Source: Candidatus Latescibacterota bacterium
Lineage (GTDB): Bacteria; Latescibacterota; Latescibacteria; Latescibacterales; Latescibacteraceae
DNA: 38,256 bases
Direction of reading: 5' to 3'
Assembly (NCBI GenBank): GCA_016927495.1
Contig: JAFGMP010000176.1
Span: forward strand, 1-38,256
A program made the translations under genes and the position numbers. Of this stretch, positions 1 through 26,906 are shown in pieces; within the stretch, counting starts at the first letter, position 1, and the number at the start of each line of letters is the position of its first letter. The notes under the pieces were generated by a model. The model was not told the DNA's origin, did no database searches, and worked only from the letters and a program-made list of their open reading frames with translations.

Positions 1-575
1 AATACCACGCCTTTGGGAACTTTGACGAAATTCAGATCGCCTTTTTCCAATTCGTAATAATGTTTCGAGGAAAGATCCCTGAAATCAATGCCGTTTTTCT
101 CCGCCATTGCAGTCCAGCCCATATCATCCCATGCATCCGGGCATGCACATTCACGCAGATAGTATTCCTGCGGCCCGGTCTCCCTCATTCCCTGAACCCA
201 GCCGGCGACAAAATTAGGATCGGTGTTAACACCGAGTTTCTCAAATACAGCATGACCATCTTTCGGACCTGCACAGGTAAAATTAGCTTTTAGGGTAATT
301 CTTGTAGAATTGGAATATCCGGCAGAATCGGTTTTAACAATAAGTTCTTTTGAAAGTTTCAAACCGGCGCTTTCAATTTTATCAATATCTTTTTTGGAAT
401 CAACCGAAGTTTTATAAATAAAAACTGCTTCAGGATGTTCTTTTATAAACGGATGAACGTCAAAACCGGGTCCGCTGAATTTTTCATTCGCTTTTTTAGC
501 TAACGCCGAATGAGCACCGACAAAACCGGTAACTCCTGCTGCGGTCGATGCTTTTATAAAGTCCCTTCTTTTCAT
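1..575 (-). CDS. DUF362 domain protein with Tat-like signal, partial (C-terminus beyond window start)
   Basis: Reading the minus strand from an ATG at 575 gives an open frame of about 191 codons that runs off the window at base 1. It begins MKRRDFIKASTAAG, a twin-arginine-like signal, and continues almost in step with the next gene (594..2204): both share GPGFD, HPEAVFI, DGHAV, EKLGVNTDPNF, RECACP and NGIDFRDLSS/NNIDFRDLSS. It is therefore the N-terminal third of a close tandem paralogue. An AAAGGAT ribosome-binding site lies just upstream of the ATG, and the gap to the upstream gene's stop is only 18 bases, so the two are very likely cotranscribed. DUF362 proteins are poorly characterised; some members carry ferredoxin-type clusters, but no such Cys cluster is visible in this fragment. 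The paralogy is certain from the sequence; the biochemical role is unknown. Confidence 0.88.
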   Translation of the reverse strand, partial: MKRRDFIKASTAAGVTGFVGAHSALAKKANEKFSGPGFDVHPFIKEHPEAVFIYKTSVDSKKDIDKIESAGLKLSKELIVKTDSAGYSNSTRITLKANFTCAGPKDGHAVFEKLGVNTDPNFVAGWVQGMRETGPQEYYLRECACPDAWDDMGWTAMAEKNGIDFRDLSSKHYYELEKGDLNFVKVPKGVV

Positions 576-593
576 TTTTTTATCCTTTGTGAT

Positions 594-2204
594 TTAAGAG
601 TACGTTACAATTTCATGTACTGCATCCCAACCCATACCCTTCACATATGCGCTGTAAAGCCCGGGTGAAGCAAAGCCATCCCATACTACCTGGTGATTGC
701 CCGGTTCGAGCTCATCGGTAATAAGCCTCGTTACAATCTCACCGTCACGGTCCAGCACATCGACATACACCCATTCTTTTTTTGGCAGTGATAATTCCAT
801 CACAACCCTGTTTTGAGAATCACGGCCAATATCCTTTATCGATGGTGTGCAGTCGCCGACTCGCGCACCTTTTTTCCACGCCGAATAATCGAACGGTTCG
901 TCACACAGGTGGAAATGATCCTCGGTACCGCCATTATAATCTCTCGGCAGGTAATAGGTAACCAGCGGAGTACGTTTGAAGTCGATGAGCCGGGCAAGTT
1001 CCGCCTGCCCGTCCTTCCAGTTATAGACAGGAATATCGAAGGGATCGAGTACATCGGACATACCACGCTCGATACCAGAATGAAAGAGGCCGAAATTACC
1101 CGGTTCATGACCGGCAAGCCAGTGAGTAATGATATCCACACGGAACGGGTTAGCACCAAATATTATAATATTACTCATATAATCTCTGCTGGAAACTTCG
1201 TATGGACCGAGTTTCTCATGCGGTCCTGTTCCGAAACCGTTGCCGTCCTGACTGTAAATTCCCTCTACCATATTAAGGGCAGTCGGAGTTACACTTAATG
1301 AATCAAGCATACGTTGCACCCAGGTTTCCATACGAAGGCCGCCGTTCGGATCAGGCCTGTCCCAGCGCGGATAACCATCGGCCACATGCTGCGCATGCAA
1401 TTCTTCGATTCGTTTTTCAAAATTTTTCTGGAAAAATTTATCATAACGTATACCAAAACGTTTTCTGATCTGATCATGACCGGTACACATCTGATGGAAT
1501 CTATGACCGCTGATACCCTGAAGATTTTTTATCGTGGCGGTAATCCCCATCCCATGTGCTTTCATCTTGGCGATATTCACCAGAAAGGTATCAGGTTCGT
1601 TCATGGGAGACATAAAACCGATTTCTTTAAAAACAACACCTTTGGGCGTTTTAATAAAATAAAGGTCACCTTTTTCCAGTTCCCAGTAATCCATGGATGA
1701 AAGATCTCTGAAATCGATGTTGTTCTTTTCGGTCATTTCAACCCAGCCCATATCTGCCCAGGATTGGGGGCATGCACATTCTCTGATATAATAATCCCGG
1801 GGGCCGGCTTCACGCATACCGTTGACCCATCCCGCAATAAAATTGGGATCGGTATTCACACCGAGTTTTTCATAAACAGCATGTCCGTCTTGTGGGCTGG
1901 CGCATGTCCAGTTCGGTTTGACAGTAATTTTTGTGGAGTTGGGAAAACCACCCGAAGGAGACTTAACGATAAGCTCTTTAGCAAGCTTGGCACCGGCGCT
2001 GTGAATGTCATCGATGTCACGTTTTGATGCGACGGAAGTATGGGTTATAAAAACCGCTTCCGGATGTGCTTTGACAAACGGATGAAGATCGAAACCGGGC
2101 CCGGTTGTTCTTCTGGCATTTTGATGTGCCGTTGAACATGCCTGAGCCAGGATTCCGGAAAATCCTGCCGCAGTCGACGATTTAATAAAATCTCTTCTTT
2201 TCAT
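594..2204 (-). CDS. Exported DUF362 domain protein with C-terminal FlgD-like Ig region
   Basis: This 536-residue protein starts MKRRDFIKSSTAAG, which fits a Tat signal; the AQAC at residues 20-23 is a poor lipobox, so lipidation is doubtful. The central part has the DUF362 character, with segments such as VNIAKMKAHG and ATIKNLQGISGHR around residues 210-235 and THWLAGHEPGNFGLFH around 360-375. The last 70 residues or so (VDVLDRDGEIV, GNHQVVWDG, PGLYSAYVKG) resemble the FlgD-type Ig fold that often ends exported proteins in FCB bacteria. It is the upstream member of a tandem pair with the gene at 1..575. Secretion through the Tat pathway would suggest folding, perhaps with a cofactor, before export. 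Substrate and reaction are unknown. The family call is confident; the cofactor idea is inference. Confidence 0.85.
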   Translation of the reverse strand: MKRRDFIKSSTAAGFSGILAQACSTAHQNARRTTGPGFDLHPFVKAHPEAVFITHTSVASKRDIDDIHSAGAKLAKELIVKSPSGGFPNSTKITVKPNWTCASPQDGHAVYEKLGVNTDPNFIAGWVNGMREAGPRDYYIRECACPQSWADMGWVEMTEKNNIDFRDLSSMDYWELEKGDLYFIKTPKGVVFKEIGFMSPMNEPDTFLVNIAKMKAHGMGITATIKNLQGISGHRFHQMCTGHDQIRKRFGIRYDKFFQKNFEKRIEELHAQHVADGYPRWDRPDPNGGLRMETWVQRMLDSLSVTPTALNMVEGIYSQDGNGFGTGPHEKLGPYEVSSRDYMSNIIIFGANPFRVDIITHWLAGHEPGNFGLFHSGIERGMSDVLDPFDIPVYNWKDGQAELARLIDFKRTPLVTYYLPRDYNGGTEDHFHLCDEPFDYSAWKKGARVGDCTPSIKDIGRDSQNRVVMELSLPKKEWVYVDVLDRDGEIVTRLITDELEPGNHQVVWDGFASPGLYSAYVKGMGWDAVHEIVTYS

Positions 2205-2303
2205 TTTACAACCAATATCATTTAATCATGCACAAACCATTGATTTTAGTAATCATACATATTATGAAAGTGTACCAATCCATCTATCCGGTTATTATAT
2301 TAA

Positions 2304-2332
2304 AATTTAATAATTTTACCGTACTTTGTCAA
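2304..2332 (-). promoter_or_regulatory. Candidate sigma-70-type promoter for the DUF362 pair
   Basis: On the minus strand a perfect TTGACA (2327-2332) is followed after 17 bases by TAAATT (2304-2309), about 100 bases upstream of the DUF362 start at 2204. The -35 match is perfect but the -10 matches only four of six bases, and primary promoter consensus in FCB bacteria can differ. Confidence 0.35.
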
Positions 2333-2533
2333 AATGTATTTAAAAATCGACCCGGGTATTAATAAAATATCTGTTGTGATACAGTGCCTTTTTTCAAACA
2401 GGATAATATATAATATGACGAAATATGAACCGTGATGGTTTACTATTAATTTATCTTTTTTATTTTTCAGAGAGCAAAAAGTTCCTTACATGACATTTTT
2501 TGTTGAACTTTAAGCCCGGTATTTATAAATATA

Positions 2534-2562
2534 TTGACACATCTGCCTTGTTGACATATCTT
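2534..2562 (+). promoter_or_regulatory. Candidate sigma-70-type promoter for the nfi operon
   Basis: TTGACA at 2534-2539 and TATCTT at 2557-2562 are separated by 17 bases, about 110 bases upstream of the nfi ATG. A second TTGACA at 2551 has no suitable -10 partner. Position and spacing are right for driving nfi and the genes behind it. Confidence 0.4.
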
Positions 2563-2670
2563 TCGATTAAGTGGGAGACTACTTTAACAGTTAGCCCAAA
2601 AGAGTGGAGCGAACTTGGTTTGACGGGTTTGATCCGGACAGTGTACAGGTAATTTGCGGGATGTCCAAGA

Positions 2671-3462
2671 ATGGAATGTCCGTTTCACTCATTTTATGTC
2701 TCGACAGAAGAGGCAAAAGAAATTCAACGTGATTTACGCGGACGGGTGGAACTCTCCAACACAATTTCATTCAAAGATGTTGAGTTTATAGGTGGTGCGG
2801 ATGTTTCTTTTTTGACCGCAGTTCCCGATTCTTCCGAAGTTCCTGCCGCAGATTATGTTCATGCCCTCGATAGCGCACATTCACCTGAGCGGAAACAACA
2901 GGCAGAAATGGAGCCTGAACCGTCAGTAAGTGCTCTTGCAGTAATAGTTGTTCTGGATGCTGCCACCGGAAGTCTTGTTGAAACAGTACATGCTCAAGCC
3001 CCGGTTTATTTTCCATACATACCGGGATTATTATCATTTCGAGAGGGTCCTGCCGTACTTGCAGCTTTAGGGAAACTAAAAACATTTCCGGGCGTCATGT
3101 GTTATGATGGGTGTGGAATTGCACATCCCCGGGGATTTGGTTTGGCTTCACACATGGGCATTTTAACCGGCATACCATCGGTTGGATGCGCAAAATCCCG
3201 CTTATGTGGTACTCACGATGAACCGGGGTGGGAAAAGGGTAACTGGACAGAACTCAGGTTCAAGAAAAAACTCGTTGGATCGTGCCTCCGAACCCGTGAC
3301 AATGTAAGGCCGGTATTTGTCTCTCCGGGAAACGGTTTCAGCGTGGATGGTGCACGAGACTTTGTTATGGCTTGTGTGGATAAATACAGATTGCCGGAAC
3401 CGACACGGCTTGCCCATAAATATGTGACGGCGTTAAAAAAAGAACTTATAACTCACACGTAA
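2671..3462 (+). CDS. nfi: Endonuclease V (deoxyinosine 3'-endonuclease)
   Basis: Endonuclease V cuts DNA one phosphodiester 3' of hypoxanthine (deaminated adenine), starting inosine repair. The family's signature elements are present in order: GGADVSF with the metal-binding Asp44, the strand-separating wedge PYIPG (115-119), SFRE with Glu125, YDGCGIAHPR with Asp146, GxAxRLCG-type segment near 172-180, and SVDGA with Asp226, ending in RLPEPTR. The protein is 263 residues, longer than the usual 220-230. The excess is a hydrophilic stretch of about 40 residues (roughly 48-86, rich in E, S, P and A) between the first two core strands. It is the first gene of a plus-strand run; the next gene starts 31 bases downstream. 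The ribosome-binding site before the ATG is weak (GGGA about 12 bases upstream). Family assignment is firm. Confidence 0.93.
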   Translation: MECPFHSFYVSTEEAKEIQRDLRGRVELSNTISFKDVEFIGGADVSFLTAVPDSSEVPAADYVHALDSAHSPERKQQAEMEPEPSVSALAVIVVLDAATGSLVETVHAQAPVYFPYIPGLLSFREGPAVLAALGKLKTFPGVMCYDGCGIAHPRGFGLASHMGILTGIPSVGCAKSRLCGTHDEPGWEKGNWTELRFKKKLVGSCLRTRDNVRPVFVSPGNGFSVDGARDFVMACVDKYRLPEPTRLAHKYVTALKKELITHT

Positions 3463-17446: not shown

Positions 17447-20400
17447 TTACGGCTGTGTGATCAAATTCATAAAAAGTTTTTTTGTAACTGCCGTATGTGG
17501 TTTGTCCGAAACCAGTCCGGTTACGATATCCAGAGTGGATAAAAATATTTCACCTTCACCCAGTTGAATATGGCTTAACGATTCGAGAATCTCTTTCGAA
17601 TGCTGGCTTCCGAGTGCAACAATTGTTTCCACACCCCAGTTGTGAAGCCGTATCCCCGATACATTCCGGGTATAATACAATGCCTGATATTCCCAGTTCA
17701 TCGCCTGAGCCTGAGGCAATCCGTCAAGGTATGGACTGTAACCCACAAAATACCTTCCAAGCTGACCGTGAGTTATAATTCCACCTCCCTCGTACGTGGG
17801 AGGTTTGGAATAGGAAATTTCGTTCAACAATTCAGCCCATCTGTCGGCATGATCGAGAACGATCAGTTTCGCACCACCAATGACGTCGGCCAATATATCC
17901 CGATATATGCTTTTATCCTCGTCCCTGAAATCGTGTGTTCCGACAATGATATATTTATTTGTACTGCTACCTCTTCTATAATCCGTTACTGTTATCCCGG
18001 TATTTTTGTTGAGAAATGATCTGACAGCGCCGTCATTTTCCATAACCAAGATATCCGGTAGGCTTCCGGTGCCTTCTTTATGGTCAACGGCAAAGATATT
18101 ATCAAAGCCGGCGGCTTTCTCCCGGATACCGTCGGTAATCACAGCATTGAGCTTATAATAACCGGGTATACGAACTTCCGGCAGTACAACCTCCTCGACA
18201 AGCAATTCTCCGAACACTTCGCCTCCGCTGATGTTAACCGTGTACTTTTTATCGAACAGCCTGTTACCATAAGGATCGAGATAATCGAGTTTAAGAAAAT
18301 ACGTACCTTTCAGGTTTTCCTCATTGATTATAAAGATATCAGCCACCGGGATTGTTCCGACCGGCATAACCTTCTCCCTCAGCTTTACCGCCACATACAG
18401 CGGTTGGGTATAGTACTGAAGGATAGACGGATCGGCAGTAGGATTGCGATACATATCCACAATATCGGTGCGTGTTCCGCCCGAAGCCCACCCATTGAGC
18501 ACATACGCATCGGAAAAGTTACCCATACGGATGTTTTCGATGTTACGGCCGTGGAAGTAATGCAGGTTTCTTCCCATACTCAGAGTCAGATCATCCACAG
18601 TCGGGTATGCAGGTCTGAAACCTGCTTCATCGAGGAAATTATCATAGTAATCGAACCAGTCGAGGTGCTCCATTTCACGAAAACCTGTCGCACCGGTGAC
18701 ATCCAGACGTTCTTTGATTTTCTGCAGACGTACCATGGTGCCGAAAGCACCCTCTTCACCCCAGAAAATGACCTCATCGGTTGGAACACGGGGCAGTGAA
18801 TCGTTACGTACTATGGTGTAGCGAAGGTAAAACCGCGGATTGTTATAATTATCATCGACATAACCGGCATTGGAAAACCAGTGGTGATGATCCCACCAGC
18901 CGTGATAATAGAATGTATCATCGAACGGCCTCATGTGGAGTTTATACGGATCTTTCGGGAGGAAGTCGGTCGCCTCTATATCACGGTTACGGTCGCTGTT
19001 GTATGTCAGGATTCTACCCGGATCAAGCTCGTGCACCATGCGCATGTTACGTTCGTCATCATCATCCGGTGGATTTCTTGCCTCGTTTTTCAGGTTCCAG
19101 ATAAGCAGCGACGGCCGTGATCTGTCCCTTATAACATTACGCCTGAGTTTTTCACGGCGCCAGAAAAGCGCCTGCTCATCGGGACCATCGATATTGTCAT
19201 CTTTATTGGGGGCAACCCTGTATCCGCCCGGTTCCTCATATGCAAAAACACCCATTTTATCGCACCAGTCCATGGAACGCGGCTGGCCTATGGCACGGTG
19301 ATAAAGCATCATATTATAACCAAGGTCGATACAGGTTAATATATCCTTCTTCGCCATTTCCTCTGTGGCAAACATCCCGTTTGTCGGCCAGAAGCCACGG
19401 GTCATGGCTGCCATGATGAAAACACGCTTTCCGTTGAGATAAAAACGCGGGTCGCCGTCTTTGGTCATGATATCGAACCATCGGAATCCGAACTCCTGAG
19501 ACGTATTATCCATAATATCCCCGCTTTTGGCCGCGAATACCACCGAGGCTTCATACAGATTTGCTTCCTTTACAACACGGTGTCCGGCAAATTCCCACAA
19601 TTTCGCTTTCGGAGCTTTCACATAAAATGAAACCTCGATGCCGTCGGACGGGACGGTACATGATACTGTATTTCTCCATATCTCACGGGCTGGCAGCCCT
19701 TTTTCATGGACACTCAAAGTAAGTGTCCCCTTCTGCTCTCTCTGTGATGAATTATCTAGCTTAACAAACACTTCGATTTCTTTGATTTTCGGTTTGTTTT
19801 CAACATAGATGTCGTCCACATGAACCGCATCAGTGGCGATTAGCTTCACATCACCGGTAATTCCGCCAAATCCATGCACAGCCGGAACGAGATTTTTTCC
19901 CCAGCGCATAAGAATGTTATCGTTCCAGGTGAAATTACCTACCGGATCGGTTATGCGAACATCGAGACGGTTTTTGCCGATAAATGTTACCGCACCGGTG
20001 GCGTCGACCTCAAACGGTGTGTTGCCGATTACATCGTAACCGACCAGCTTACGGTTTACGAATACTTCGGCGCGAAGGTTTACAGCAGTGAAATCGAGCA
20101 ATACCCGTTTGCCTTCGAGTTTCGGGTCAAGTTCAAAAGTTGTGCTCCACCATGAAACGCCGCGGTAATCGCCGCCCTCATCTGGGATTGCACCCCCGAT
20201 AGCTCCCCAGAAATACGCCTCGACAGTTCCCGGCACATCCACGATTTTGTCACAGGCTTTTTCAAACTTTTCCCATCCACACGTCGGAGGATTGACCGGT
20301 ATTGCCGATAAATCCACGGGCGGCATATAGATGTCGTCATCCACCCAGACAGCAGCATGATCCAGCCAGAGTTTCCATCCCGATCCCGAGAGTTTCTGCT

Positions 20401-20497
20401 CGTACCGTCCCGGATCACTCGATATGACGGAGCTTCCTAACATCAAAAGTAAAATACTGAATACTACAATTCTCCATAACCCGTACGGTGATTTCAT
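17447..20497 (-). CDS. Exported glycoside hydrolase family 2 protein
   Basis: The real start is the ATG at 20497, which has an AAGGAGAG site and a clear signal peptide (MKSPYGLWRIVVFSILLLML); a longer reading to 20578 overlaps the upstream HEPN gene and is rejected. The 1016-residue protein shows GH2 architecture: a jelly-roll sugar-binding domain (about 35-225), an Ig-like domain (about 225-345) and a TIM barrel (from about 350). The general acid/base is Glu472 in RPSLLIWNLKNEARN, and the nucleophile is probably in VIFWGEEG (Glu581 or Glu582). The last 300 residues are beta-rich and end in a GATase-like region with ILVMENDGA and LIVLDHADRW. Beta-galactosidase, glucuronidase or mannosidase activity is possible; the sequence does not decide which. 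Export suggests polysaccharide or oligosaccharide breakdown in the periplasm or outside. Confidence 0.9.
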   Translation of the reverse strand: MKSPYGLWRIVVFSILLLMLGSSVISSDPGRYEQKLSGSGWKLWLDHAAVWVDDDIYMPPVDLSAIPVNPPTCGWEKFEKACDKIVDVPGTVEAYFWGAIGGAIPDEGGDYRGVSWWSTTFELDPKLEGKRVLLDFTAVNLRAEVFVNRKLVGYDVIGNTPFEVDATGAVTFIGKNRLDVRITDPVGNFTWNDNILMRWGKNLVPAVHGFGGITGDVKLIATDAVHVDDIYVENKPKIKEIEVFVKLDNSSQREQKGTLTLSVHEKGLPAREIWRNTVSCTVPSDGIEVSFYVKAPKAKLWEFAGHRVVKEANLYEASVVFAAKSGDIMDNTSQEFGFRWFDIMTKDGDPRFYLNGKRVFIMAAMTRGFWPTNGMFATEEMAKKDILTCIDLGYNMMLYHRAIGQPRSMDWCDKMGVFAYEEPGGYRVAPNKDDNIDGPDEQALFWRREKLRRNVIRDRSRPSLLIWNLKNEARNPPDDDDERNMRMVHELDPGRILTYNSDRNRDIEATDFLPKDPYKLHMRPFDDTFYYHGWWDHHHWFSNAGYVDDNYNNPRFYLRYTIVRNDSLPRVPTDEVIFWGEEGAFGTMVRLQKIKERLDVTGATGFREMEHLDWFDYYDNFLDEAGFRPAYPTVDDLTLSMGRNLHYFHGRNIENIRMGNFSDAYVLNGWASGGTRTDIVDMYRNPTADPSILQYYTQPLYVAVKLREKVMPVGTIPVADIFIINEENLKGTYFLKLDYLDPYGNRLFDKKYTVNISGGEVFGELLVEEVVLPEVRIPGYYKLNAVITDGIREKAAGFDNIFAVDHKEGTGSLPDILVMENDGAVRSFLNKNTGITVTDYRRGSSTNKYIIVGTHDFRDEDKSIYRDILADVIGGAKLIVLDHADRWAELLNEISYSKPPTYEGGGIITHGQLGRYFVGYSPYLDGLPQAQAMNWEYQALYYTRNVSGIRLHNWGVETIVALGSQHSKEILESLSHIQLGEGEIFLSTLDIVTGLVSDKPHTAVTKKLFMNLITQP

Positions 20498-20500
20498 TGT

Positions 20501-20508
20501 CTCTCCTT
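20501..20508 (-). promoter_or_regulatory. Ribosome-binding site that fixes the GH2 start
   Basis: On the minus strand AAGGAGAG ends three bases before the ATG at 20497. It marks that codon, not the upstream in-frame ATG at 20578, as the translation start. Confidence 0.7.
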
Positions 20509-20549
20509 CGATAGCGAATACTATTATGATTGATAAATATACAGGGGTA

Positions 20550-20939
20550 TTAAGTTGCTGACGATTTTCCTGATACAAAAACTTTGATTTTTTTAGCTCC
20601 TTTCAGAGCCGCTTTCATGTCAGATTCATCCAGGTCAAGATGAAATGGATATCTTACGGTAACACTGTAATCCGTTAGCATTAAGCATTCTTCCTCTATT
20701 TCTTCAAAACTCCCATCAATGGTACAACACATCCTATTTAAAATTAACAGATCATGAGACCTTGTTATGGTTTTCCCATGAAATAACAAAAAGCCCTTTA
20801 AATATTTTTCAGCGGATTGTTGACAGTGATAACATATAATTTCAACCGGTATCGGTCGCATATTTTGCAGAAATTCCGCAGATAACAAGTCCGCATCTGC
20901 AATATTAAACCACTCTCTGGCAACATCTCGATTATCCAA
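20550..20939 (-). CDS. HEPN domain protein (partner of MNT nucleotidyltransferase)
   Basis: This 129-residue helical protein has the HEPN pattern: AREWFNIADADLLSAEFL (7-24), CYHCQQSAEKYLKGFLLF (37-54), TRSHDLLIL (59-67) and YSVTVRYPF (91-99). HEPN proteins paired with MNT enzymes often form toxin-antitoxin modules in which HEPN is an RNase and MNT inactivates it by AMPylation. Here the usual RX4-6H catalytic motif is not obvious: the nearest pairs are R60-S-H62 and R96-YPF-H100, so RNase activity is uncertain. Translation starts at TTG (20939), preceded by GGGGAG nine bases upstream; a stop lies in frame just before it. Its first 8 bases overlap the end of the MNT gene, which implies translational coupling. 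GH2 follows 52 bases downstream. Confidence 0.88.
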   Translation of the reverse strand: MDNRDVAREWFNIADADLLSAEFLQNMRPIPVEIICYHCQQSAEKYLKGFLLFHGKTITRSHDLLILNRMCCTIDGSFEEIEEECLMLTDYSVTVRYPFHLDLDESDMKAALKGAKKIKVFVSGKSSAT

Positions 20940-21252
20940 TGATCAATACTCCCCGATTAATAATTTCGTACTCGAACGTGTTTTTTATTGCTGCTCTTTC
21001 ATTAAAATCTTTTTCGTCATACACCAATATATCAAACGCCTGAGAAAGGTTACATGCAAGTTCACGTCTTATATCACGCATGATTTCAATTTTTCTTCTG
21101 TTTTTTATGTCGGTTAATACACAAAGATCTATATCGCTATCCTTGTCCGGTGCACCATGGGCATACGAACCAAAAAGAATAATTTTCGTTATTGAGAGTT
21201 TATCGCGAAATTTATTCCCAGTAACTTTGATAGTATCTTTAATGTCTATCAT
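20932..21252 (-). CDS. MNT-type minimal nucleotidyltransferase (antitoxin-like)
   Basis: The 106-residue protein has the polymerase-beta-fold signature GSYAHGAPDKDSDID, an exact GS-X10-DXD (Gly28, Ser29, Asp40, Asp42), and a third acidic residue in FDILVYDE (Asp74). Enzymes of this kind, such as MntA, AMPylate a tyrosine on the partner HEPN toxin. A strong AAGGAG site lies about ten bases before the ATG at 21252. The gene is the first of an MNT-HEPN pair with an 8-base overlap, the usual order for such modules. The pair lies between the GH2 gene and a divergent reductase operon, so it may be an accessory insertion or may simply share transcription with GH2. Confidence 0.9.
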   Translation of the reverse strand: MIDIKDTIKVTGNKFRDKLSITKIILFGSYAHGAPDKDSDIDLCVLTDIKNRRKIEIMRDIRRELACNLSQAFDILVYDEKDFNERAAIKNTFEYEIINRGVLIIG

Positions 21253-21506: not shown

Positions 21507-22493
21507 ATGAATCGCAGAAATTTTATAAAAGATATCGGTTTATCTACATCAGTACTTTCCCTGTCCGGGTGCGGGGCTCAATCAGTTCAACAACTAAATG
21601 AAATCAGTGTCCCATCAGGTACCATGCCCATGAAAAAACTGGGGAAAACAAGCATCGACATTTCCCTGCTCGGTTTTGGGGCACACCTGAAAGAGGAGCT
21701 TGTCAGACAGCCGAAACTTCGGGACAGAATGATCAAACTCGGTTATGAGGGCGGTATCAATTTATTCGATGTCTACAACCGTGACGAATACCGCCAGTAC
21801 AAACCGATGAGCAAATCGATCCGCGAATTCAGGAAAAATATCATACTCTCGCTTTATGCCATAAACGGCACGAAAAAACTCATATCGGATGTGGAGTATG
21901 CGCTTAAAACCTTCAAAACCGATTACATCGATTTGTACCGTTTCAGACCGGTAAACGATACCAGCATTTCCATAATGGAAAAATATAAACAGGAAGGCAA
22001 AATACGGGCACTCGGTGTTGCTGCACATTCTGCCGAAATACTGACCAAGTATATCAATACCTATGGCGGCAGTATCGATTATATATTTGTCATCTACAAT
22101 TTCCACCATGGCAGATTTATTATGAGTGCGGAGAAAGACGATAGCGAGGCGCTGATAAATCGGTGCAAGCGTGATGGAATAGGTATCATCGGGATGAAAC
22201 CCATGGGCAGCGACGCTATGATAAAGTTTGCCCATGAACGGGGCTATTTCAATAACAACGGCCCCAATATTGCACAGTCGATGCTGCGGTATGTATATCG
22301 ACGTCAGGAAATCAATGCGGCAGTCACCGCCATGAACACTATCGATGAGGTACTTCTGAATCTGAAAGCCGTCTATTCACCGACTATCAGCGAAAACGAG
22401 ATTGAAAAGTTACAAACACTGAGCAGAAAAGCCTCTGAACAAAAGGGAGCATATCTGCCAAAGCATTACCAGTGGCTTGAAAGCTGGGTTTAA
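21507..22493 (+). CDS. Exported aldo/keto reductase-like lipoprotein with degenerate active site
   Basis: The 328-residue protein begins MNRRNFIKD, a Tat-like motif, and carries a lipobox LSGC (Cys22), so it is probably a Tat-exported lipoprotein. The body has the aldo/keto reductase TIM barrel: MPMKKLGKTSIDISLLGFGAH at the start, a GGINLFD segment with the first tetrad Asp, DYIDLYRFRP, and the late GIIGMKPMG strand. Two of four catalytic residues seem replaced: the Lys position reads ILSLYA and the His position reads LYRFRP rather than the usual LYxxH. NADPH-dependent carbonyl reduction is therefore doubtful; a binding or altered role is possible. CGGAG lies about ten bases before the ATG. 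It heads an operon with an MliC-like gene (15-base gap) and a beta-helix gene. Confidence 0.85.
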   Translation: MNRRNFIKDIGLSTSVLSLSGCGAQSVQQLNEISVPSGTMPMKKLGKTSIDISLLGFGAHLKEELVRQPKLRDRMIKLGYEGGINLFDVYNRDEYRQYKPMSKSIREFRKNIILSLYAINGTKKLISDVEYALKTFKTDYIDLYRFRPVNDTSISIMEKYKQEGKIRALGVAAHSAEILTKYINTYGGSIDYIFVIYNFHHGRFIMSAEKDDSEALINRCKRDGIGIIGMKPMGSDAMIKFAHERGYFNNNGPNIAQSMLRYVYRRQEINAAVTAMNTIDEVLLNLKAVYSPTISENEIEKLQTLSRKASEQKGAYLPKHYQWLESWV

Positions 22494-22508: not shown

Positions 22509-22895
22509 ATGTTAGGTCAAAATACAGCAAAAATATCGATAATCATTCTTACCATAATGCTTTCCGGTTGCTTACCGGGTGTGCGCCAAAATAAATTGAT
22601 GGTGGAAATCGGCCAACCCGTGTATTATATAAGCGAAGATGGCTCTCATTTTGTGGCAAGATACGGTTCCCTGTCCGATAAAAGCTTACACTTTGTTAAA
22701 GTACAGTTGCCCGATGGCCGGGAATATACACTGCCTCAGGTAATCTCTGCGTCAGGTGTCAGATATACGGATGAACGAGAACTCGTCTGGTGGACTCATC
22801 AAGGAACGGTCCGTGTTGATGCCAGAAATTCCGAAGGCAACTGGGTAACTATACATAATGAATTACGTGAAACCACCGATTCTGAATTTAAATAG
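22509..22895 (+). CDS. MliC-like lipoprotein (lysozyme inhibitor family)
   Basis: A 128-residue protein with a lipoprotein signal ending in LSGC (Cys21). The mature region shows the MliC/PliC features: YISEDGSHFVARYG, the conserved LPQVISASGVRYTDER loop and a WWTHQGTVRVDA strand. In Proteobacteria MliC inhibits C-type lysozyme, the invariant Ser and Lys of the loop binding the lysozyme active site; here the Ser of SASG is present. AGGAT lies about 7 bases before the ATG. It lies between the reductase-like gene and the beta-helix gene, with gaps of 15 and 44 bases. The family resemblance is fairly strong but judged by eye; a more general envelope role is possible. Confidence 0.75.
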   Translation: MLGQNTAKISIIILTIMLSGCLPGVRQNKLMVEIGQPVYYISEDGSHFVARYGSLSDKSLHFVKVQLPDGREYTLPQVISASGVRYTDERELVWWTHQGTVRVDARNSEGNWVTIHNELRETTDSEFK

Positions 22896-22939: not shown

Positions 22940-24619
22940 TTGAAAAGATTACTACTGACATGCTTTGTGTTCCTAATATGTTTTGCCGGAAGTCTGATCG
23001 CCGAAAATCTGCCCCCCTATACGAGCATGGTGTATCCCGGTGTGGATGGTAAACTGGTATATGTACCCGATGAACAGGGAAATATCATTCCCGATTATTC
23101 TTATGCGGGTTACTGTTGCGGTGGTGTAACCCTGCCATATGTTCCGGTACGGGAGACTGTATGGCCTGTGGAGGGCGATAACGCAGCCAACATTCAGGAG
23201 GCGATTAACCGCGTTTCCGAACTGCCATTGGACAACAACGGATTCCGTGGAGCGGTATTGATAAAGAAAGGCTACTACAAGTTATATGAACCAATACACA
23301 TAACGGCAAGTGGTATCGTGCTGCGCGGCGAGGGTATGAACGGATCGGGTACTACCCTGATCGCTATGACCACAGATGAATTGAAAACCGGAAACACTTT
23401 CCGCAGTTCGGCGCTTATAGTAATTGACGGGCAACAGAAGATTGAACCGGATACCGGCAAAAGTGTCAGGATTGTTGATGAGTTTGTGCCGTTCGGAGCG
23501 AAGTCATTCCGGGTTGAATCGGCAAAGAAATTGAAGGTCGGTGATACGGTAATCGTACGTCGCAAAACCACCCGTGAATGGTTTGAAACACTCGAACTCG
23601 ATATCGACAACGACAAGTGGGGACGAGGTGAAGTTGCCTGGAGCCATGATTTCGACCGGGTAATAACCGGTATCGACAGAAACATCATAACGGTTGATGT
23701 ACCGATTACCTGTCCCATAGAGGCTCGCTGGGGAGGTGGTGAAGTTATCCCATACACGGAATACCGTATTTCGAAGGTTGGGGTGGAGAATCTTATGGGC
23801 ATCTCCGAATACGACCAGACAAAACGTATCGATACGGCAACCAACATCGACCGTATACCGTTTTACACCGACGAATACTACAATGACGAAAACCACTACT
23901 GGACATTTATCCGCATGGATAATCTCACCAACGGTTGGGTTCGGAATGTGACTCAAAAGCATTTCGCCATGAGTCTGGTGTCGGTGGAAAGCGGCTGCAA
24001 ATGGATTACGGTTCAGGACTGTGTTTCACTGGACCCGATATCCATGAGAAGCGGAGGACGGCGGTTTATTTATCATATCAGCGGCCAGCTCTGCCTCGTG
24101 CAGCGATGCACCTCTGACCTTGGACGTCATTCGTTCGTTATGGGCGGCAGGCTCACTACCGGCCCGAACGTGTTCCTCGATTGTACAGCGACGCGACCGT
24201 ATTCCACCAGCGAACCGCACTCAGACCTGGTTGCTGGCGCTCTCTACGATAATATCCACGCACCCCTTTCTCTCCGGTATGCGGCCTCTACCATACAGCG
24301 CTGGATGGCGATCTGGGGTGTACTCTGGAATTGCGAGGGCATGTATATCTGTCAGAAGCCGCCGGTGGGACAAAATTTTGCATTCGGGCACATCGGTATC
24401 CATGCGGTGGTTTTTAATACCAACCTTGTGGATCACCGGTTTCCCAACGGACATATTGAGTCCTGGGATAAACATGTAGCGCCGCGGAGTCTCTATCTGA
24501 AACAGCTCGATGACCGGCTTGGCTCTGAGGCGGTAAGGAATATAGCTGTGCCGAGCCAGCTTATCGATCCGTCGAACGAACCATGGGGCGGCAATGCGGA
24601 AGGAGTTCTGCTGAGATAA
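22940..24619 (+). CDS. Exported right-handed beta-helix protein (pectate lyase-like fold)
   Basis: Translation begins at TTG (22940), placed by an AAGGAG site about 7 bases upstream and a clean signal peptide (MKRLLLTCFVFLICFAGSLI, cleavage near AEN). The mature protein has the pattern of beta-helix polysaccharide-active proteins: a DNAANIQEAINRV helix cap (about 81-93), GAVLIKKGYYKLYEPIHI, GIVLRGEG and then repeated short strands with turns (WVRNVTQKHFAMSLVSVESG, WITVQDCVSLDP, LVQRCTSDLGRHSFV). The 559 residues include a Cys-rich start (SYAGYCCGGV). Substrate and activity cannot be told: the fold covers lyases, hydrolases and binding proteins. It is the last gene of the reductase-MliC operon, and a heparinase-like gene faces it from 24915. 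Confidence 0.83.
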   Translation: MKRLLLTCFVFLICFAGSLIAENLPPYTSMVYPGVDGKLVYVPDEQGNIIPDYSYAGYCCGGVTLPYVPVRETVWPVEGDNAANIQEAINRVSELPLDNNGFRGAVLIKKGYYKLYEPIHITASGIVLRGEGMNGSGTTLIAMTTDELKTGNTFRSSALIVIDGQQKIEPDTGKSVRIVDEFVPFGAKSFRVESAKKLKVGDTVIVRRKTTREWFETLELDIDNDKWGRGEVAWSHDFDRVITGIDRNIITVDVPITCPIEARWGGGEVIPYTEYRISKVGVENLMGISEYDQTKRIDTATNIDRIPFYTDEYYNDENHYWTFIRMDNLTNGWVRNVTQKHFAMSLVSVESGCKWITVQDCVSLDPISMRSGGRRFIYHISGQLCLVQRCTSDLGRHSFVMGGRLTTGPNVFLDCTATRPYSTSEPHSDLVAGALYDNIHAPLSLRYAASTIQRWMAIWGVLWNCEGMYICQKPPVGQNFAFGHIGIHAVVFNTNLVDHRFPNGHIESWDKHVAPRSLYLKQLDDRLGSEAVRNIAVPSQLIDPSNEPWGGNAEGVLLR

Positions 24620-24914: not shown

Positions 24915-26906
24915 TCACCACTCGACAAGCGGTTTCACCTTCCAACTCTCAACGATTTCACCATCCTCCCAATGCGGTGATAGAAGTATTGCTAAACGAA
25001 CATTTTCGGTCTGATTTTCAAGATGAACCATCAGCCGTTTGACACCCTCATTTGTTTTCTGAGGCGGTTTCTGTTCGGCAGATTCAATGGTAAACCGAGC
25101 GCCTTCGGGACTGAGTATACGGGCGGTGAGTTGTTTCCCTTTCTGTTCAAGCACAGCGATGCTGCCATCGGGATGTATGTCGGCATCGGTTGTCATGCCC
25201 CATGAAATATCACAGGATTTGCTTATTTCGAATTCATCCTGAACGAGAACAGCACGGCGGCTGCCAACCATTGCTACACCCCTTGTCACTTTGTTTACAG
25301 CAGGTATATAAGCAGCGCTCAGGTCTACGGTGACAAATGCAGACTCAGGTTTGGAATCGAATTTCAGAAAGTGTGCATTCGCCAGTTCATCCTGATTTGC
25401 GTTGTTCACCATCGGTACATTGTGGCTAAATGAACTGTTGCGATAATATGACCAGCGTTTCCCGCCGGTCTTTTTGGTCAGATAATAGAAGTCGAAATAT
25501 CCCGGCAGACTGTAATCATCCGCACCAAGATCCCGTGCCCACCGTACCCCGAGAGCATCGAGTTCGAATGTGCCAAGGTCAAGCTGAGAATGGTTAAAAG
25601 TGTTGTCGCCTGCTTTAACACCGACAAACAGCGCATCGGGATTTTCCCATTCGCTCCTGAACACGGCAACCTCGACATGACCGCGGAACCGTTTGTCAAG
25701 GCTGGGTTTAACCGACTTCCCGGGAATATCCGCATACCACATGAGATGTTCGGTTCTTGCTCCGTCATTTTCTATCATTTCGGTTTCACGGTCGGCGATA
25801 AACCGGATATTAAATGTCCGTGCCAGCCAGAAAAGAGGGGGCATGCTTCTTATATGGTTATTCTCAGGGCTGTCGGCAAAATTCAGGTACAAACCGGTGG
25901 GACCTGAAGTATAGATCGGGAAAAGGCCTGTTTCCGAAAGGCCATCGATTTTTGTCAGACCGTAATCGGTTCCCAGAGCCGATTCAAGAGCAGACAACCC
26001 GTAAGCCGCATACATGGTTGCATATCCCCAGTACGATGGGCCTTCGGGCCAAGCACCGTCCGGACCATAGGTCACAAGAGCGAGCGGTAAAGACTTTACC
26101 GCATTTGGTATTACAACTTTTGCGTATTCGGGGTCGCTCTCTGCGATTGCCAGCACACCTATTATCAGGCCACCGTTGCACACAAGGTTCCAGTTGTGGT
26201 TATAGGATACCCATTCGGCAGGTTTTCCCGAGGGATTACCGATGCCGGTATAGGCCATAACACCCTCTTCAAGTCCGTTCTTAATCAATCCGTATTTAAT
26301 CATTTTTCGGGTATCTTCGGAAAAATAATGATAAAACCAGTCATAACCGATTCCTGCCGCATGACATGATTCGGAAACATCGAGGAACGAAAACGGAGGG
26401 CGTGAATCTTTATCCTGATTATTTTTATATTTTGTTTCTTTAGGGTAAATAATTGCAAGGGAGGGGGTCCAGTTTTCGAGGGAACAGAACTCCAGCAGGT
26501 CTTTTTCGGCTTTTTGTGCGTATTTTTCTTCTCCTGTTAGACGCCAGGCAAAACCGAGGGTATACATCCGGTTCATGCATTCCCTGCTTGTAAACATAAG
26601 ACGTGCCCCTTCTTTGAGTTCGTACGATAATGTGGGTTTACTGCAGTATTCATCAGCCTTTTTCAGTATCGTGCTTACAAATGCCCTTATTTGAGCATCG
26701 CTTTTTTGAAGCGATTTGATGCGATCGAGTTCTGTGTCATTCATCATAAGCCGGGGATGTGACCTGTTAAGCGTCGAAAGCACTTCATTTGAGAAGGGAT
26801 AACGTACCGGTGATTGACCGAAAGCTGTATGTGAAAAAAATAATATCGGACTCACGGTAAAAAAGGAAAGAACGAGGTTATTTATAAGTCTATTACCCAT
26901 ATGCAT
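24915..26906 (-). CDS. Exported heparinase II/III-like polysaccharide lyase
   Basis: The 663-residue protein has a signal peptide (first about 30 residues, ending HTAFGQS), an (alpha/alpha) toroid and a C-terminal beta-sandwich. The catalytic region reads SYNHNWN (Asn236, His237 and Trp239) and GPDGAWPEGPSYWGY (281-295), the key pattern of this lyase group. The Hepar_II_III sheet domain starts near FNHSQLDLGTFELDALG. Members cleave heparin, heparan, alginate or other uronic-acid polymers by beta-elimination; the exact substrate cannot be read from the sequence. GGGG lies 8 bases before the ATG. Its promoter must lie in the 240-base divergent gap shared with the gene at 27147. With the GH2 and beta-helix genes it suggests polysaccharide use. 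Confidence 0.9.
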   Translation of the reverse strand: MHMGNRLINNLVLSFFTVSPILFFSHTAFGQSPVRYPFSNEVLSTLNRSHPRLMMNDTELDRIKSLQKSDAQIRAFVSTILKKADEYCSKPTLSYELKEGARLMFTSRECMNRMYTLGFAWRLTGEEKYAQKAEKDLLEFCSLENWTPSLAIIYPKETKYKNNQDKDSRPPFSFLDVSESCHAAGIGYDWFYHYFSEDTRKMIKYGLIKNGLEEGVMAYTGIGNPSGKPAEWVSYNHNWNLVCNGGLIIGVLAIAESDPEYAKVVIPNAVKSLPLALVTYGPDGAWPEGPSYWGYATMYAAYGLSALESALGTDYGLTKIDGLSETGLFPIYTSGPTGLYLNFADSPENNHIRSMPPLFWLARTFNIRFIADRETEMIENDGARTEHLMWYADIPGKSVKPSLDKRFRGHVEVAVFRSEWENPDALFVGVKAGDNTFNHSQLDLGTFELDALGVRWARDLGADDYSLPGYFDFYYLTKKTGGKRWSYYRNSSFSHNVPMVNNANQDELANAHFLKFDSKPESAFVTVDLSAAYIPAVNKVTRGVAMVGSRRAVLVQDEFEISKSCDISWGMTTDADIHPDGSIAVLEQKGKQLTARILSPEGARFTIESAEQKPPQKTNEGVKRLMVHLENQTENVRLAILLSPHWEDGEIVESWKVKPLVEW

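Follow-up and report, generated by a model that had tools for sequence, protein, structure and literature searches.

A Tat-signal family of aldo/keto reductase fold in Candidatus Latescibacterota with a rebuilt active site and a possible non-reductase role in sugar chemistry

We identified, within a 38,256-nucleotide stretch of DNA from a Candidatus Latescibacterota genome (the window), a gene for an exported protein of aldo/keto reductase (AKR) fold whose relatives have lost most of the catalytic tetrad and hold a different set of polar residues fixed. Judged from the aligned sequences and their tree, the family is a single rebuilt clade and not the product of drift. The tetrad is all but universal among AKRs, which are known as reductases, and a clade that has lost most of it and fixed a different set of polar residues offers a natural experiment in the re-use of an enzyme fold. 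The reading that we prefer, and to which we give roughly even chances, is that of an extracytoplasmic family of Tat-exported lipoproteins in which the AKR barrel has been rebuilt for sugar-acting, non-reductase chemistry. The coordinates of the gene, its diagnostic residues and its neighbours are collected in Table 1.

Table 1 Features of the window, with positions counted from its first letter
Feature	Position	Strand	Remarks
Gene for exported AKR-fold protein with rebuilt active site	21507..22493	+	328 aa + stop
Tat motif RRNFIK, residues 3-8	21513..21530	+	RR motif in 35/40 family sequences
Lipobox LSGC, residues 19-22, Cys22	21561..21572	+	pattern in 25/35 family signal regions
His60, just past strand 1, family-specific	21684..21686	+	38/38 family rows with a letter; 2% of ordinary AKRs
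Asp88, Val89, Tyr90, end of strand 2	21768..21776	+	Asp 39/39, Tyr90 39/39; Tyr90 in 0/47 ordinary AKRs
Tyr117 (ILSLYA) at tetrad Lys position	21855..21857	+	Lys in 47/47 ordinary AKRs, 0/40 family
Arg145, two residues ahead of old His position	21939..21941	+	40/40 family, 0/47 ordinary AKRs
Arg147 (LYRFRP) at tetrad His position	21945..21947	+	His in 47/47 ordinary AKRs, 12/40 family
His201, past strand 6, family-specific	22107..22109	+	38/40 family, 2/47 ordinary AKRs
C-terminal aromatic motif YQWLESW, Tyr321-Trp327	22467..22487	+	Tyr321 and Trp327 in 40/40 family rows
Two tandem Tat-signal (RRDFIK) proteins	3-2204	-	first cut by window edge; complete one has DUF362
Glycoside hydrolase family 2 (GH2) protein	17447..20578	-	BLAST relative adjoins family member in L062
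HEPN + nucleotidyltransferase gene pair	20550-21252	-	between GH2 and AKR-fold genes
MliC-domain small lipoprotein-like gene	22509..22895	+	starts 15 bases 3' of AKR-fold gene
559-aa protein, signal-like N-terminus	22940-24619	+	no Pfam match at E 0.001; adjoins polysaccharide-degradation genes
Heparinase II/III-like protein	24915..26906	-	BLAST relative adjoins family member in L064

The open reading frame (ORF) starts with ATG, is intact throughout and has GGAG just 5' of the start. The N-terminus of its 328-amino-acid product, MNRRNFIKDIGLSTSVLSLSGC, carries a twin-arginine motif followed by a lipobox whose last residue is Cys22. Aldo_ket_red (PF00248) is the sole Pfam name assigned to the protein (E 5.4e-15, 55.7 bits against a cut-off of 24) and its top sequence matches among solved structures are AKRs; NCBIfam returned only a sub-threshold match to methylglyoxal reductase (28.7 bits against a cut-off of 550). 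An AlphaFold2 model (pLDDT 86.4, pTM 0.84) found its best solved fold match in the L-galactose dehydrogenase 7svq (Z 29.1, rmsd 2.5, 266 aligned, 20% identity), and nearly all of the 50 best solved fold matches, with Z from 24.6 to 29.1, are of AKR fold. Pfam match, model and fold matches together confirm a (beta/alpha)8 AKR barrel, and the combination of Tat-like signal, lipobox and AKR fold put forward in the original prediction is thus borne out.

The active site was compared between 40 family sequences and 47 ordinary AKRs retrieved by the same family profile, the latter chosen by their similarity to that profile and including several near-copies (L023, L028, L032, L033, L035). Alignment to these 47 confirmed that the tetrad Lys and His have given way to Tyr117 and Arg147 in the window protein, as had been proposed from its sequence. 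The loss of two positions proposed there was nevertheless an undercount, in that the tetrad Tyr, present in 47/47 ordinary AKRs, occurs in no family row with a letter in that column, leaving Asp88 as the sole survivor of Asp, Tyr, Lys and His in the window protein. All 39 family rows that have a letter in the Asp column read Asp there, as do 46 of the ordinary AKRs, with Glu in the remaining one. A shifted alignment hiding either missing residue was rejected: residues 112-120 contain no Lys, the nearest being K110 and K123, and residues 138-155 contain no His, so that the tetrad reading stands.

Neither replacement is itself conserved among the homologs. Position 117 reads V12 C7 S7 Y4 A3 T2 M2 I2 F1 across the family and position 147 reads H12 Y10 V6 L5 M3 Q2 R1 S1, giving Tyr in 4/40 and Arg in 1/40; the old Lys and His positions are free to vary. 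Position 172, the nicotinamide-anchoring Ser or Thr of AKRs, is S/T in 47/47 ordinary AKRs and Val, Pro or Ala in 37/40 family members (V21, P13, A3, S3). Nine catalytic and nicotinamide columns overlap with ordinary AKRs at 0.25 against a mean of 0.46 (P 0.003 for a value as low) and twenty adenylate-side columns at 0.56 against the same mean (P 0.04 for a value as high), the P values being indicative only as both sets of columns were picked from known AKR contacts after the alignment had been inspected. With the adenylate side conserved at least as well as the average column, the family proteins may still bind NAD(P).

A second set of residues has become fixed around the altered tetrad. Beyond those listed in Table 1, R72 and Q97 are each found in all 39 family rows that have a letter there and in no ordinary AKR, S115 in 40/40 family sequences and 15% of ordinary AKRs, and S59, which is Ala in the window copy, in 97% and 2% respectively. 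H174 (45/47 ordinary AKRs) and K231 (42/47) are common to both groups. In the secondary structure of the model, D88 and Y90 lie in strand 2 (86-90), S115 and Tyr117 in strand 3 (113-118) and R145 in strand 4 (141-146), just ahead of position 147. Y90 is a new invariant Tyr two residues past the tetrad Asp. Based on the alternation of strand residues in the model, we infer that R145 may take the place of the lost Lys as the partner of D88. The relatives retaining the new residues are 29-49% identical to the window copy. In alignment A1, a profile of 36 sequences including the window copy, the remaining 35 share 28 invariant columns; the divergent window copy retains 26 of these, deviating at S59 and A258. 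Scattered residues at the Lys and His positions of homologs were to be taken, according to the original prediction, as a sign of ordinary drift. The scatter is literally present, but drift is the wrong conclusion, because alongside it the family holds other residues invariant that ordinary AKRs lack or seldom have.

The A1 profile identified family members at no fewer than 42 places in 9 of 64 Candidatus Latescibacterota genomes, all scoring at least 213 bits with the next match at 138 bits, and since at most the best 33 candidates were scored per genome, 42 may be a lower bound. Ten are in the window's own genome (G000), 8 in G001, 9 in G002 and 9 in G003, and the remaining six are spread over five genomes from a different taxonomic family (f8). 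A protein search of G000 gave 21 matches, ten of which belong to the family by profile score. Across 386 genomes of the domain, with the best 5 candidates scored per genome, members above 200 bits occurred only in the same nine genomes; the best non-family match on the same basis, at 142 bits, was a different AKR from another phylum (L127). Of the 22 loci from a genome-contig search, 19 hold ordinary AKRs in which both Lys and His are present and three (L105-L107) hold members, all from Candidatus Latescibacterota SI047_bin62, where stretches are identical to those of G002 (L105 = L044, L106 = L046). G002 belongs to the same taxonomic family as the window's genome, and this identity puts the window in that phylum. 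No family member was confirmed among the viral contigs searched, and no paper on such a family was found in the titles and abstract openings of open papers. Within the sampled genomes, which beyond the phylum were searched by patterns and with one genome per species, the family is confined to Candidatus Latescibacterota.

A tree of 88 rows, made by a quick method without bootstrap, separates the 40 family sequences from all other rows by a branch with SH-aLRT support of 100. The window copy clusters with nine other rows (support 97) on a branch of length 0.78, and the shortest path from it to any other row is 1.38, indicating that a close ortholog is absent from the sample. His147 is retained in 11/14 rows of one clade and in 1/10 rows (L002) of the window copy's own clade.

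The five family sequences in which the RR motif was not found are truncated or long open frames. Some of the signal regions that do not match the lipobox pattern finish in AxA-like sites, and to judge from these signals the membrane anchor varies across the family. A Tat-like signal, recognised by a simple pattern test, is also carried by 15/47 ordinary AKRs, and Asp, Lys and His are kept in 15/15, five of the 15 being near-copies of each other. The argument that a reductase is improbable because NADPH is lacking outside the cytoplasm fails on these proteins, and export as the cause of tetrad loss is rejected on the same ground. The conclusion which that argument had served, that a classic reductase is unlikely, is supported, and a new activity built on the AKR fold, one of the options in the original prediction, is the best reading. 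The L127 protein (1447-2742 (+), genome G118) is a separate case, an AKR with a Tat signal and a cysteine cluster at its C-terminus in which the tetrad Asp and Lys are replaced by Ser and Gly and the His is kept; it is possibly an independent tetrad loss.

The MliC-domain gene is possibly co-transcribed with the AKR-fold gene, and the HEPN and nucleotidyltransferase pair is a typical toxin-antitoxin arrangement; a CN hydrolase is also encoded in the window. Genes found beside family members elsewhere include pectate lyases (L046, L060), DUF4861 (L052), an FGE-sulfatase domain (L059), a polysaccharide deacetylase (L058) and DUF2961. A scan of 66 other neighbors, taken apart from partners (see below), family members, ORFs of less than 150 amino acids, the window and the f8 loci L067-L072, found PF01261 sugar-isomerase-like barrels to be commonest (5) followed by DUF2961 (3), among the best 25 of 99 families. 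Many neighbors have no evident tie to sugars, including TPR proteins, PilX_N, an ammonium transporter and a peptidase S15. Some of the family's neighbors point to polysaccharide use, and published Latescibacteria genomes have been described as those of degraders of algal polysaccharides (PMC4454575).

A set of 21 ORFs neighboring family genes forms one cluster, hereafter the partners. Four of these were scanned against Pfam and 4/4 match GFO_IDH_MocA, one slightly under the cut-off; a model of one partner (pLDDT 84.8, pTM 0.86) matches GenD2 (Z 27.1, rmsd 3.0, 285 aligned) and has NAD-dependent glycoside hydrolases and sugar dehydrogenases among its close folds. A twin-arginine motif is present in 19/21. 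The catalytic Lys of the EKP motif, placed by alignment to the EKP/DKP of 3evn and 3uuw, is Arg in 19/21 partners (NRP, SRP, DRP) and Cys in 2/21 (RCP), where ordinary Gfo/Idh/MocA members of the same genome read EKP. GxGxxG is kept in about 5/21 (four confirmed by pattern and L060 by eye; a fifth pattern hit, in L065, falls in the signal region) and missing from most, so that partners may still bind NAD(P). Tat-signal Gfo/Idh/MocA proteins with both EKP and GxGxxG exist in the same genome (L140-L143). The partner family is large, with at least 18-28 per genome in G000-G003 (L057, L061, L066 and others), mostly with Tat signals, and lone partner-type proteins occur in several f8 genomes both with and without family members.

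Partners lie within 5 kb of at least 14/36 family genes in G000-G003 against 1.43 expected from density and flank length, a count made among the matches listed, on many short contigs and with one partner counted for each of two family genes that share a contig; 200,000 simulations reached 10 at most. Among the matches listed, a partner lies within 5 kb of 0/25 ordinary AKRs, a raw count for a control set in which one gene, G001:C119, narrowly misses the limit with a partner at about 6 kb. At L058 a partner, a sodium:solute symporter and a family member are consecutive on one strand. No such partner was found for the window copy within its 38 kb, and it is one of the 22/36 family genes in G000-G003 with no partner within 5 kb among the matches listed. 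In the clade that mostly keeps His147, members L042, L048, L051 and L064 are close to PF01261 or xylose-isomerase-like barrels of the same cluster, which suggests a second partner type for that clade.

In our preferred reading the family took over the AKR barrel and swapped the reductase tetrad for the new invariant set, yielding what would be an extracytoplasmic enzyme acting on sugars while polysaccharides are broken down, ahead of uptake. A sugar substrate is suggested by gene context together with the fold. The apparent dismantling of the nicotinamide side of the site suggests that its chemistry would not be net hydride transfer, and a lyase, isomerase or epimerase step is predicted as the most likely kind of reaction. 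Asp88 paired with Arg145 would form the likely centre, with Tyr90, His60 and His201 as putative acid/base residues or metal ligands and Tyr321 and Trp327 as a candidate sugar platform. Counting against this reading are the 12/40 members that retain the tetrad His, the family genes without a nearby partner (the window copy among them), the ordinary-AKR-like adenylate side, the partners with GxGxxG and the many non-carbohydrate neighbors. A more tentative extension, which we consider possible though clearly the less probable claim, is a two-protein extracytoplasmic sugar system in which AKR barrel and Gfo/Idh/MocA protein, unrelated NAD(P) oxidoreductase folds, both with Tat signals, both without their Lys and both multiplied, would jointly run a reaction new to either fold, for example the opening or eliminating of oxidised or uronic sugars before uptake.

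The nicotinamide might instead take part without net turnover. Tat exports folded proteins, which would suit an enzyme loaded with NAD(P) in the cytoplasm, exported folded and carrying its cofactor prebound, its nicotinamide reduced and reoxidised in each cycle of an oxidoreductive lyase, epimerase or sugar-sugar oxidoreductase with the new residues as acid/base groups. A prebound cofactor is the arrangement in glucose-fructose oxidoreductase. The latter, a periplasmic Gfo/Idh/MocA enzyme with a Tat signal, provides a precedent (PMC4628093), and the comparatively conserved adenylate half of the cofactor site fits, as do the enzymes among the partner's close folds. This redox-neutral route is nevertheless rather doubtful given the loss of the anchor Ser/Thr and of the tetrad Lys and Tyr, to which the disappearance of the EKP lysine from the linked partner is added. 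Slightly further down we place a non-catalytic sugar- or ligand-binding protein that captures products for a symporter or stabilises an enzyme complex. The lipobox in most signal regions and the one symporter neighbor are in keeping with binding, and so is SmbA, which matches the window protein at Z 25.1, level with many AKRs, and whose nearest relatives outside its own group by BLAST are described as distant AKRs (PMC9944927). In receptors for different ligands one would expect the polar residues to vary, however, whereas here they stay the same in relatives that share only 29-49% identity with the window copy. This constancy speaks for shared chemistry over varied binding and for an enzyme rather than a receptor. 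A decaying or merely divergent AKR in which tetrad residues are unimportant would account for the scatter at the old Lys and His positions and for the window copy's long branch; we regard it as very improbable in view of the intact frame, the 26/28 invariant columns retained and the number of places and genomes in which the family occurs.

The Pfam name Aldo_ket_red probably implies the wrong chemistry for some 40 exported Latescibacterota proteins, and the linked Lys-to-Arg Gfo/Idh/MocA-fold family renders the question of function directly testable.

The family shares with the AKR superfamily (PF00248) the barrel, the tetrad Asp, framework residues such as D142, H174, N198 and K231 and the comparatively conserved adenylate half, but differs from it in the Lys, Tyr and His of the tetrad and the nicotinamide-anchor Ser/Thr, mostly gone in the family, and in its invariant H60, R72, Y90, Q97, R145, Y321 and W327 and nearly invariant H201. 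The L-galactose dehydrogenases are sugar enzymes and include the closest folds to the window protein (7svq, 7ezl, 9w6y and 7lh6, Z 27.1-29.1) and the best profile match among solved structures (8scc); they are about 20% identical to the window protein, their aligned sequences have both Lys and His, and to our knowledge they are not exported. The Tat-signal ordinary AKRs (L018, L027, L109, L129 and others, from the same and other phyla) have the same fold and kind of signal as the family but differ in their complete retention of Asp, Lys and His. SmbA of Caulobacter (8bvb, 6gtm) is an AKR-related TIM barrel serving a non-reductase role, as we propose for the family, and is described as binding c-di-GMP and ppGpp (PMC9944927); the window protein is set apart from it by its export signal and its fixed set of polar residues.
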